A stretch of DNA of 64,000 bases from the NCBI GenBank assembly GCA_028284905.1, contig JANQQU010000022.1:62001-126000 (forward strand), in the 5' to 3' direction. Origin of the DNA: Calditrichia bacterium (lineage in GTDB: Bacteria > Calditrichota > Calditrichia > RBG-13-44-9 > J075). Position numbers and translations under genes: made by a program. The notes beneath the pieces are model-generated. The model saw only the letters and a list, made by a program, of their open reading frames with translations. It searched no databases and was not told the origin of the DNA. This document shows positions 21,953-25,165 of this stretch, in pieces. Positions within the stretch are counted from its first letter, which is position 1. Each line of letters begins with the position of its first letter.

Positions 21953-23959
21953 ATGAACGCATTCGAAATCAGTGATATACCCGGTTTAACAGATTTATGG
22001 GCGGAAACAATGGGTGAACCGGAAATCTCCATTGCAATCCTGGACGGGCCGATTGATGTTACGCATCCGGACCTTCAGAAAGCTAATATAATTCAGTTCG
22101 GTTCATCTTTTACAGCTTCTGCCAATTATAGTGCTGCATCTGCACATGGTACTCATGTTGCGAGTATTATTTTCGGGAATCATGACAGTGCGATTAAAGG
22201 AATTGCACCACGATGCAGGGGAATTAGTATCCCGATTTTCAAAGATAAAAAGGATGGGGGTATTGCACCGTGTTCGCAAGTGGATCTTGCCCGGGCAATC
22301 TCGCTGGCAATTGAACAAGGTGCTGATATTATTAATATCAGTGGCGGAGAGTTATCTACAACCGGAAAGGCCCATCCGCTATTAGCCAAGGCTGTTCAGG
22401 ATTGTATTAAAAGGGGCATTTTGATTGTTGCCGCTGCCGGAAATCAGGGATGCAATTGTCTTCACATTCCCGGTGCACTGCCTTCGGTTATTGCTGTCGG
22501 AGCAATGGATCGGGAAGGCCTACCCTTAGATTTTAGCAACTGGGGAGATTTGTATCAAAGTCAGGGAGTGTTGGCACCCGGTAGCGGTATCATTGGTGCA
22601 TCTCCTGATGGCGAAACTGTCCTAAAAAGTGGTACCAGTTATGCAACGCCCATCGTTGCCGGTGCTGCAGCCCTCCTGCTGAGTATTCAATTAAAAAAGA
22701 ATAAAAAGACTAATCCAGAAATGGTAAGAGGCGCAATCCTCGGCAATACTATCGGTTGTGATGTACAGCCGGTAGCGAATTGCCGCCGCCTGCTTGCCGG
22801 CCGTTTGAATCTTAAAAACATCATATTTCAAATTACAAAAGGAGAGAATCTTATGTCTGAAACAAAAGAAGTTTATGAGAGCCAACTGGCGCATGAAATC
22901 GTAGAGAATGCTACGAATAATGCTTGTTCGCTGCCGCAGGTTCATAACAATTCAGTGATGGCCGCCGAAGCTAATGGGGCTGTTGAAAAGGATAATACAG
23001 TGGATGTGTCTTCCACGATGATTTCGGTAAACCCACAAGGGGTGGATGTAAATAAACAAAATTCAGCAATCAACGAATCAGTTGCAGCATCATCATGTGG
23101 TTGTAGTAGCAATACTGAAGAAAGCAATCCAATACAAATGGGGTTTGTTTTGGGTCAAATCGGTTTTGATTTGAGGTCTGAGGCCCGGCGGGATTCTATC
23201 CAACAACATATGGAACCAGCTTCGGCAACCAATGGTTTTTCGGCAAATCCGCATGACCCCGCCCAGATGCTTACCTATTTAAGTGATAATCCCTGGGAAG
23301 CCGCTTCCATTACCTGGACGTTAAATCTGGATTCCACACCATTATATGCTATTCAGGCCCAGGGGCCCTATGCGAATGAAGTATATCAGCGATTAAGGGA
23401 GTTTTTGAGGGAGCAGAGTGAAGGGCGAATTGAGCGGATATCTCTGGGCGGATACATTACCGGTGAACTGCAATTGTTGTCTGGCCAAGTTGTGCCGGTT
23501 ATCTGGCCGGAAATCCGCTGCATGTATAGTTGGAACACAACGGAACTTATTAAGGCTGTTTGTGGCGAGCCTCCCACCGGAAGTGCAAAAGTAAAAGAGA
23601 AGGATACCTATCAGCGGAATTGCGATTCTGTCGTCAATTTTTTGCAGCGAGTATATCATGAATTAAGGAATTTTGGCGTAACCTCCTGCGATCGGGCAAT
23701 TAATTACGCTGCGACAAATGCATTGAATGCGGCTAAAATTTTTGAAGCAGCCCTTAAGGATAATATGCAACTAGATACGATCGAATGTGAACGTAGCCCG
23801 GTTTGCCGTGCTGAATCTGATTGCTGGGACATCAAACTCGGTTTTTTTGATCCGGAAAATCAACTTACCCGCGCTCGAAAAGTATATCGGTTTACCATCG
23901 ATGTTAGTGATGTTTGCCCGGTAACGGTTGGAGCGGTGCGTAGCTGGTTTGTGCGTTGA
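21953..23959 (+). CDS. PatA/PatG-type subtilisin (cyanobactin maturation protease family)
   Basis: A 668-residue serine protease without a signal peptide. Residues 10-285 are a subtilase domain with catalytic Asp31 (ILDG), His65 (HGTH), Ser229 (SGTSYA) and oxyanion Asn164. The sequence around each, for example PGLTDLWAETMGEP, GCNCLH and LDFSNWG, matches PatA. Residues 390-668 correspond to the conserved C-terminal domain of PatA/PatG: FVLGQIGFDLRSEARRDS, RNFGVTSCDRAINYAATNA, CWDIKLGFFDPEN and ending in VGAVRSWFVR. A variable Cys-poor linker (about 301-385) contains SSCGCSS. In cyanobactin biosynthesis PatA removes the leader peptide and PatG cyclises. No YcaO cyclodehydratase, prenyltransferase or dehydrogenase is nearby. 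Its natural substrates are probably the three small proteins that follow. A perfect internal start lies at Met301. Confidence 0.9.
   Translation: MNAFEISDIPGLTDLWAETMGEPEISIAILDGPIDVTHPDLQKANIIQFGSSFTASANYSAASAHGTHVASIIFGNHDSAIKGIAPRCRGISIPIFKDKKDGGIAPCSQVDLARAISLAIEQGADIINISGGELSTTGKAHPLLAKAVQDCIKRGILIVAAAGNQGCNCLHIPGALPSVIAVGAMDREGLPLDFSNWGDLYQSQGVLAPGSGIIGASPDGETVLKSGTSYATPIVAGAAALLLSIQLKKNKKTNPEMVRGAILGNTIGCDVQPVANCRRLLAGRLNLKNIIFQITKGENLMSETKEVYESQLAHEIVENATNNACSLPQVHNNSVMAAEANGAVEKDNTVDVSSTMISVNPQGVDVNKQNSAINESVAASSCGCSSNTEESNPIQMGFVLGQIGFDLRSEARRDSIQQHMEPASATNGFSANPHDPAQMLTYLSDNPWEAASITWTLNLDSTPLYAIQAQGPYANEVYQRLREFLREQSEGRIERISLGGYITGELQLLSGQVVPVIWPEIRCMYSWNTTELIKAVCGEPPTGSAKVKEKDTYQRNCDSVVNFLQRVYHELRNFGVTSCDRAINYAATNALNAAKIFEAALKDNMQLDTIECERSPVCRAESDCWDIKLGFFDPENQLTRARKVYRFTIDVSDVCPVTVGAVRSWFVR
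22837..22855 (+). promoter_or_regulatory. Internal ribosome site and in-frame start inside the PatA-like gene
   Basis: AAAAGGAG at 22837-22844 stands 8 bases before ATG 22853-22855, which is codon 301 of the protease and in the same frame. Translation from it would give a separate 368-residue protein consisting of the linker and the C-terminal domain, without the catalytic triad. Sites this good are unusual inside a coding frame, so the gene may make two products. Confidence 0.55.
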
Positions 23960-24024
23960 TGAGCCAACTCAGTTAGGCAGTTAAACACATATAAACTAAC
24001 GTTTTACTAATGAAAGGATTTATT

Positions 24025-24417
24025 ATGAAATTACCAAAGCAATCTGTACCGGTCGAAAGAAACAGTGGAGAATTAATTGACAAGTCGGAACTTCCCGGAA
24101 GCGGACTTTTTCCTTCTGCGGCCAGAGGCGGCTCCGGGCAAGCAGGAGGAAAATGTAAAGTTACTTCGGGATCCAATGCCGGAAAAACGGGCACTTATAC
24201 CGAGGATGGAGAAGGGCTTTGGTGTGAAGGCGATTGGGGCGGCACACAATGCACCGATTCGCAAGGAAACTCCAATGGTAAATGTAGCAATGCCAGACAG
24301 TGGATGGGTGGACTTGGCACTGTTGATGATTTTGGCAGTAGAGAATTAAGAGTATTTTTTGCGCCTTCCAGACCAAGGTTCCGTTTTCGTTCTCCCGGCT
24401 TCTTCCGCTTCTTTTAA
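24025..24417 (+). CDS. Small Gly/Cys-rich protein 1, candidate protease substrate
   Basis: A 130-residue protein. The ATG at 24025 has AAAGGA 6 bases upstream. An in-frame ATG five codons earlier has none. It begins MKLPKQSVPVERNSG, a motif shared in part with the two following small proteins and reminiscent of cyanobactin leader starts. Residues 35-42 are Gly-rich, so a cleavage site may lie there. Four cysteines (44, 67, 76, 87) lie in a hydrophilic Gly/Ser/Asn-rich region. The tail (116-130) is rich in Arg and Phe. No signal peptide is seen. It follows the protease by 65 bases. A precursor role is inference. Confidence 0.65.
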   Translation: MKLPKQSVPVERNSGELIDKSELPGSGLFPSAARGGSGQAGGKCKVTSGSNAGKTGTYTEDGEGLWCEGDWGGTQCTDSQGNSNGKCSNARQWMGGLGTVDDFGSRELRVFFAPSRPRFRFRSPGFFRFF

Positions 24418-24492
24418 ACGTCAGGAAAGCTCAAAGCTGTTTAAAGAAAACGCATCGTTGTAAGCAATCATTAATTAAAAGGAGAATTTAGA

Positions 24493-24768
24493 ATGGGAAT
24501 GCCAATTCAATCAATCGGTAGTACTCGTAAGGTCGAAATAATCCCGGGTAAAAATCTTGTTAAACCGAGCCTTTTTAGTTGGGTGAATTTAGGATACGAA
24601 GACCTGGTTTATGGCCCGCAAATCTCCATCGATCCCTCACCTGCAGCGTGCGATCTGGCCTGTGGGGAAGGACGCAGCGATTGCGCGAGAGAAGGAGGCA
24701 GTCGTTGGGAATGTCATCAGGAACACCGGCAATGCCTCTGGGATTGCGCTACTGGTATGGCTTTTTAG
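24493..24768 (+). CDS. Small six-Cys protein 2, candidate protease substrate
   Basis: A 91-residue protein preceded by AAAAGGAG 9 bases before the ATG. It starts MGMPIQSIG, related to the neighbouring small proteins. The C-terminal half carries six cysteines (53, 57, 64, 74, 81, 85) with the mirror-symmetric spacing C-x3-C-x6-C-x9-C-x6-C-x3-C. That spacing puts Cys on the same face of two antiparallel helices, so a disulphide-locked helical hairpin (1-6, 2-5, 3-4) is plausible. No signal peptide is evident, so export would need the leader or a dedicated route. Function unknown, assignment as precursor inferred. Confidence 0.65.
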   Translation: MGMPIQSIGSTRKVEIIPGKNLVKPSLFSWVNLGYEDLVYGPQISIDPSPAACDLACGEGRSDCAREGGSRWECHQEHRQCLWDCATGMAF

Positions 24769-24787
24769 TCGTTTTAGATTTTTGGAG

Positions 24788-24824
24788 CTCCCGGGAATAC
24801 AGAATACTTTCTTTATTCCCGGAG
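24788..24824 (+). repeat. Stem-loop between small proteins 2 and 3
   Basis: CTCCCGGGAATA at 24788-24799 pairs with TATTCCCGGAG at 24814-24824 with one bulged C. No T-run follows, so it is more likely an mRNA-stabilising or attenuating hairpin than a full terminator. It lies 19 bases after the stop of small protein 2. Confidence 0.6.
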
Positions 24825-24937
24825 TCTGCAGGACTTCGAAGTGTCGATTCTATTGAACTTCTTTAACCAATGAATTCAAATCAAACACCTGCTTACAAAT
24901 TGAAATTGTCAGCAGGTGATATTCCAGGAGGAAAAAA

Positions 24938-25165
24938 ATGAAATTGCCCAGACAAGCTGAAGGCACTAGTCATCGAAATTTAACTGATAGCAACTCCCGG
25001 CAATTGCGCATCTCTTTACCCGGAGGGCTGGCGAAAGAAATTGGGCTCGGAGATGTTGTCAAAAGTATAACGTCCAAGGTAGGGTTTAAGCCGTGTGGCG
25101 GCTGTCAGAAACGAGCCGCCGTATTGAACCAACGAATGGTATTTGTTCCTGCCCGGAAAAAGTGA
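24938..25165 (+). CDS. Small CGGC protein 3, candidate protease substrate
   Basis: A 75-residue protein with AGGAGG before the ATG. It starts MKLPRQAEG, like small protein 1. Residues 35-66 (EIGLGDVVKSITSKVGF then KPCGGCQKRAAVLN) match a short motif seen in various phage and bacterial small proteins, in which the CxxC may bind a metal or form a redox pair. Cys53 and Cys56 are the only cysteines. The tail is basic. No signal peptide. It is the last gene of the protease cassette and is convergent with the NhaC gene 45 bases away. Confidence 0.6.
   Translation: MKLPRQAEGTSHRNLTDSNSRQLRISLPGGLAKEIGLGDVVKSITSKVGFKPCGGCQKRAAVLNQRMVFVPARKK

Follow-up and report, generated by a model that had tools for sequence, protein, structure and literature searches.

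Gene arrangement at the locus

A 64,000-nucleotide stretch of the genome of a Calditrichia bacterium (the window; GenBank assembly GCA_028284905.1, contig JANQQU010000022.1, positions 62,001 to 126,000) carries a PatA-type protease of the kind known from cyanobactin pathways, followed by three small genes that may form a peptide-maturation cassette with it. The protease, P0001 (21953..23959, + strand, 668 aa), covers model positions 1-606 of 606 of TIGR03895 with 711 bits (cut-off 421) and is the single match above cut-off in this genome. Its S8 peptidase domain (22022..22747, + strand, PF00082, residues 24-265) is followed by both parts of the cyanobactin domain of unknown function (DUF), PatG_D (23144..23455, + strand, PF18047, 3.5e-11, residues 398-501) and PatG_C (23624..23947, + strand, PF18065, 2.6e-37, residues 558-665). 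Catalytic Asp31, His65 and Ser229 as well as oxyanion Asn164 are all present, in agreement with an earlier note, made from the letters of the DNA, that had recognized a full-length PatA/PatG-type subtilase with intact triad. The Asp-His spacing of 34 is PatA-like (70-167 in PatG), and judged by this spacing the macrocyclization insert of PatG is absent from the protease domain, so that a linear product is expected. The closest solved structures are PatA-type proteases, 4h6w (an N-terminal cyanobactin protease, 319 bits) and 4h6v (289 bits), while the PatG structure is a much weaker match (162 bits).

The genome (8.55 Mb in 93 contigs, 100% complete) offers none of the usual partners. The earlier note had seen no YcaO at the locus and had named a copy elsewhere in the genome as evidence against its view; PF02624 is absent from the whole genome. 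Neither a second PatG_C protein nor a TIGR03678 precursor match was found in it (control genomes gave no TIGR03678 match either), and tblastn detected no PatB/PatC-type genes within 10 kb of P0001. The protease type occurred in this genome only among 146 genomes searched and was therefore probably acquired.

As previously described, the three small genes lie on the same (+) strand at close spacing (gaps of 65, 75 and 169 nt), each start is preceded by a purine-rich ribosome site, and the products of 130, 91 and 75 aa contain 4, 6 and 2 Cys. The frame of P0002 has two starts, 24010 and 24025, the second of which gives precursor 1 (24025..24417, + strand, 130 aa), a protein beginning MKLPKQ whose leader MKLPKQSVPVER... 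is a strict match to the motif discussed below. Its proposed leader (24025..24117, + strand) ends at a PatA-type site, GLFPS (residues 27-31), ahead of a proposed core of 99 aa (24118..24414, + strand) with all 4 Cys and a C-terminus rich in Arg/Phe. Precursor 2 (P0003, 24493..24768, + strand) has the variant leader MGMPIQSIGSTR and a proposed core of 42 aa (24640..24765, + strand) that follows SIDPS (residues 45-49) and is predicted to be a helical hairpin. Small protein 3 (P0004, 24938..25165, + strand) combines a leader-like start, MKLPRQAEG, with a body of the form GLGD...CGGC...LN. Pfam and NCBIfam held no family for any of the three, and tblastn against plasmids gave no relatives of P0002.

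Between precursors 2 and 3 lies a stem, CTCCCGGGAATA...TATTCCCGGAG (24785-24825), which might act as a hairpin for RNA processing or attenuation; a promoter and terminator scan returned no more than chance expectation. Other MKLPxQ starts in the genome were rejected, as they had no clear ribosome site or lay within longer frames (L096, L099, L101), and for three further matches (L097, L098, L100) no ORF was listed.

A common leader motif downstream of PatA

An alignment-based scan of 85,000 species genomes yielded 80 loci, 81 with the window. Sorting by tblastn with PatB, PatC, PatD and SagB-type queries gave 33 cyanobactin-like loci, two of them doubtful (L035 with weak PatD and SagB, L043 with a PatB-like ORF only), and 48 PatA-only loci including the window; YcaO was excluded genome-wide for the window's genome and by neighbourhood for the others. 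Across the 81 loci, the pattern [LM]PxQxxP[VI]xR had 90 matches, all of them on the strand of PatA and none on the opposite one; 78 lay within 4 kb downstream. For 200 permuted patterns the corresponding averages were 0.16 on the + strand, 0.19 on the - strand and 0.04 within 4 kb. The regular expressions were picked after viewing the sequences, a source of bias against which the strand and permutation controls guard. By the strict pattern or a looser start rule, a leader ORF was present in 42 of the 46 PatA-only loci with downstream sequence, and inspection added L060 (MNSPTQARPVQR) and L037 (a strict match for which no upstream start had been kept), leaving L022 and L051 without one. Similar small genes thus do recur beside homologous proteases, as the earlier note had anticipated.

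In the window, the loose start rule combined with a ribosome site gives three matches within 1.2 kb, compared with about 0.0013 per kb on the opposite strand of the loci (2 in 1.49 Mb). With the window left out of its training, a leader model applied to a 22-kb stretch placed P0002 at the top (11.2 bits) and P0004 in fourth place (3.9 bits). The [LIM]PxQSxG form of the leader, a variant that P0003 carries, is shared by precursors from loci of the same PatA subclade (L016-L021). The idea that the small ORFs are spurious, lying by chance downstream of an orphan subtilase, could draw on the missing database families and on codon usage, by which alone they cannot be told from chance ORFs. It is largely refuted by the statistics on leader, ribosome site, strand and position and by the existence of P0004 homologues, and we give it next to no credence.

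The shared start from which the earlier note had argued is not a new feature. It is the N-terminal motif LPxQxxPVxR of true cyanobactin precursors (KKNILPQQGKPVIR) and of PatB (MKLPKQSPPVKR). P0002-P0004 match no NCBIfam precursor family and have only this leader motif in common with PatE-type precursors. Three cyanobactin leader models (TIGR04446, TIGR03678 and TIGR04220) gave sub-threshold matches to PatA-only precursors, essentially in the leader region. Precursor genes of this type have likely been missed by annotation, since ten other PatA-only precursors scanned showed no NCBIfam family above cut-off and the precursor of L010 is unannotated in its record. Because PatA is the sole enzyme common to all settings, LPxQxxPVxR is most simply read as a recognition element of the PatA family.

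PatB/AcyB/McaB proteins, whose role is unknown, begin with the same leader (L055 at 13170, L061 at 13111, L069 at 13637), as does a PatB-type protein of L011 (12571-12786) that starts MRLPKLAPPVKR; leader ORFs resembling PatB are also present in YcaO-less PatA clusters (L043, L078). To judge from these N-termini, PatB may itself be a client of PatA.

Candidate cleavage sites and cores with even cysteine numbers

A site of the form G[VILMF]x[PA]S follows the motif at 10-45 residues in 36 of the 90 precursors (1.2 expected from shuffling), close to the published PatA consensus G(L/V)E(A/P)S (PMC10885120). The candidates in the window are GLFPS in P0002 and SIDPS in P0003, the latter directly ahead of the predicted folded part. 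Even numbers of Cys were found in 63 of 66 non-redundant Cys-containing cores, whereas 58% of opposite-strand control ORFs were even (p = 6e-12). Twin CX3C motifs occurred in 18 of 75 cores (2.2 after shuffling), twin CX4C in none. P0003 itself has Cys at 53, 57, 64, 74, 81 and 85, an exact mirror spacing of 4-7-10-7-4 (chance 0.9%) with CX3C at 53-57 and 81-85. AlphaFold, run on the single sequence, places helices at 50-66 and 71-87 (pLDDT blocks of 72-81), so that the predicted hairpin begins directly after SIDPS, and leaves the leader unstructured at low confidence.

Cys parity and the CX3C hairpins make disulphides more likely than azolines or metal, in line with the earlier suggestion of disulphides rather than heterocycles. 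Alternatively, the Cys of such substrates might coordinate metal or be joined by a different crosslink that an enzyme encoded elsewhere installs. A CxxC in P0004 and the lack of a disulphide-forming gene nearby are compatible with this, and unlinked enzymes for ribosomally synthesized and post-translationally modified peptides are known (PMC8960859). We nevertheless consider it unlikely given the even Cys numbers over diverse cores, the CX3C spacing typical of disulphides in hairpins such as the alpha-hairpinins (PMC7191063) and the absence of YcaO from the genome. A related branch (L025, L044, L045, L078, L095) has Cys-free cores behind GVEAS-like sites, which by eye resemble amphipathic helices.

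PatA-only loci across bacterial phyla

The cassette is not a singular case but one of 48 in a widespread class. Besides Cyanobacteriota, no fewer than seven phyla contain PatA-only loci, and in all the setting extends to bacteria of roughly ten phyla, although several are contigs of metagenome-assembled genomes with possible binning errors and the loci are not independent. In the PatA tree, the PatAs of cyanobactin clusters come together in a single supported group, and PatA-only proteins fall into large supported groups apart from it. A tree rooted with the other subtilases of the genome had too long an outgroup branch and low supports, and it sets no polarity between the two kinds. The window's supported group comprises 13 PatA-only proteins from Bacteroidota, Hydrogenedentota, Nitrospinota, Planctomycetota, Pseudomonadota and Cyanobacteriota, while further loci belong to Bacillota, Acidobacteriota and Streptomyces plasmids. 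PatA homologues were detected by tblastn on plasmids of Acaryochloris, Gloeocapsa, Gloeothece, Nostoc and Streptomyces; several of these neighbourhoods have no YcaO but contain small ORFs beginning M[KN]LPxQxxP[VI]xR, some of them unannotated. Viral contigs yielded no relatives.

This distribution bears on the possibility that the locus is a decayed or partial cyanobactin cluster, in which PatA and leader-bearing remnants have survived the loss of PatG, D, B and C with no current function. The cassette is short and isolated, and its protease was probably acquired, as such a remnant might be. Yet the aligned D, H, N and S columns are kept in 52 of 52 PatA-only proteins, the class is broad and separate from the cyanobactin clade, and precursors with regular Cys parity are present in several copies, all of which makes decay very unlikely.

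Apart from PatA, every gene is limited to at most 9 of the 48 PatA-only loci, and no conserved neighbour resembling a modification enzyme was found across them. Some branches have additions of their own. A protein of 285-311 aa resembling an S-adenosylmethionine-dependent methyltransferase lies downstream in L025, L026, L030, L032 and L045, about 2.2-4.5 kb from the PatA midpoint, and could provide an extra modification in this one branch. In the subclade nearest the window (L017, L018, L019, L021), related AraC-type-regulator-like proteins (up to about 300 aa) are encoded 1.6-3.1 kb upstream of the PatA midpoint. On a Streptomyces plasmid (L013, 10773-11759), a PatA homologue is followed by four tandem small genes, two of them identical, with leaders MPQQVPPVDR...SGVEAN and short, helix-like cores.

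P0004 and split PatA systems

P0004, a single-copy gene in this genome, stands apart from the other two. Small proteins encoded on plasmids of Streptomyces, Sinorhizobium and Mesorhizobium match its body at 53-55% identity. Their genes are flanked by a short S8 protease on one side and, on the other, by a protein with PatG_D and PatG_C as its only confident domains, an arrangement that amounts to a split PatA (L104, 3246-5219; L105, 4091-6120; L106, 4054-6145); near the corresponding gene of L107 no S8 gene is listed. Through these neighbourhoods, P0004 is tied to the PatA/DUF system independently of its leader, and so well kept a body is more in keeping with a conserved role than with a variable product. 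The small CGGC gene inside the split PatA is unannotated in L105 and L106. The GLGD...CGGC...LN motif (25034-25144) additionally matches the phage family phrog_32048 of unknown function (E 4e-4) and, weakly, proteins of Nonlabens phages.

The three small proteins had been proposed as like substrates, a view that is supported for P0002 and P0003 and is less apt for P0004, which may be more than a variable core. P0004 and its relatives could be conserved partners or regulators of the PatA/DUF system, with P0002 and P0003 as the products. Conservation across phyla beside split S8 and PatG_D/PatG_C genes, unlike that of the variable cores, and the single copy speak for such a partner, whereas the start MKLPRQ and the position at the end of the same gene series do not. 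We regard this as a tentative option a little short of even odds, and it is compatible with a PatA-only cassette acting on P0002 and P0003.

Proposed maturation route and its standing

We favour, with a probability of roughly 0.7, a PatA-only peptide cassette in which PatA alone would remove the leader from disulphide-braced peptides. The small genes would encode precursors with the cyanobactin-type leader LPxQxxPVxR or the local variant [LIM]PxQxxG, which the protease would recognize, probably via its C-terminal PatG_D/PatG_C part. The S8 domain would then cut behind a G-hydrophobic-x-P-S-like site, presumably GLFPS in precursor 1 and SIDPS in precursor 2. The freed core would undergo neither heterocycle formation nor head-to-tail cyclization and would be stabilized by paired Cys, and precursor 2 would fold as a hairpin of helices whose disulphides, 53-85, 57-81 and 64-74, are nested. 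Export would depend on genes located elsewhere. The products may serve in antagonism or signalling, to judge by their sporadic, partly plasmid-borne distribution and the variability of the cores. What was computed for this route comprises homology, leader, site, Cys parity and the lack of YcaO, of a second PatG_C protein and of the macrocyclase insert. That the small proteins are substrates, first proposed from adjacency and shared N-termini, gains support from the leader, site and strand statistics.

Several observations weigh against this route. P0003 and P0004 have only the weaker variant [LIM]PxQxxG, the leader model does not pick up P0003, and codon usage adds no support for any of the three genes. 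A canonical cleavage site is missing from P0004, as is the LPxQ leader from its homologues. Of the closest tree relatives, two Bacteroidota loci, one has a leader ORF (L021) and the other none (L022). The P0003 model has a mean pLDDT of 58, and a Foldseek search of it against the PDB gave nothing significant. The PatA-only cassettes have no conserved gene for export, immunity or thiol oxidation, although a peptide cut in the reducing cytosol would still have to gain its disulphides.

More broadly, the loci may stand for a widespread class of ribosomal peptides in its own right, whose dedicated maturation needs no enzyme other than one PatA, with the DUF as reader of the LPxQxxPVxR leader and with disulphide-braced products; we put the chances of this at even. 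If true, cyanobactins would share a PatA base system to which YcaO, PatG and PatB/C were added. A class that keeps PatA, DUF and leader and has no heterocyclase, macrocyclase or B/C separates these functions and by subtraction connects the motif at the precursor N-terminus with the PatA family. The DUF common to PatA and PatG has a solved structure and no assigned role, and a published assay of the PatG DUF with PatE' saw no convincing binding (PMC4259220); in the PatA-only setting, a single enzyme and a single peptide would suffice to test its role. The findings point to a simpler, overlooked bacterial route to peptides.

Comparison with known systems

Cyanobactin clusters have been described from cyanobacteria only, always with two proteases (G always present) and with B and C (PMC4663559). 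No PatA-only or non-cyanobacterial cyanobactin-like system was found in the open-access literature, and paywalled work may hold some. The window cassette shares with patellamide-type pathways (PatA-G) the PatA protease with its DUF, the precursor motif and the PatA-type cleavage site. PatG with its macrocyclase, PatB, PatC and the optional PatD (YcaO) are absent from the cassette, and of a PatE-type precursor P0002-P0004 share only the N-terminal leader motif, the heterocyclase site LAELSEEAL being absent. While cyanobactins carry short hypervariable cassettes and azolines, the proposed cores here have 42 and 99 aa and paired Cys. The locus is therefore best read as a variant of the cyanobactin kind and not as a cyanobactin cluster; it has the traits of the PatA-only class, namely PatA with DUF, no B, C, D or G nearby and leader ORFs downstream on the same strand.

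Unmodified bacteriocins processed at double-glycine sites or by subtilases likewise combine a leader peptide, a small Cys-containing core and a dedicated protease, as is proposed here. The window differs from them by a PatA-family protease with DUF, the lack of a linked transporter and another leader. Precursor 2 is predicted to resemble plant alpha-hairpinins (PMC7191063) in its CX3C...CX3C helix-loop-helix with nested disulphides; no homology is claimed, as precursor 2 is bacterial, has a PatA-type leader and would form three nested pairs instead of two. The split PatA loci of rhizobial and Streptomyces plasmids (L104-L107) share with the window the S8 protease (except L107, where none is listed), the PatG_D/PatG_C protein and the P0004-type CGGC protein but, unlike the window, encode protease and DUF on separate genes together with a small protein that has no LPxQ leader.

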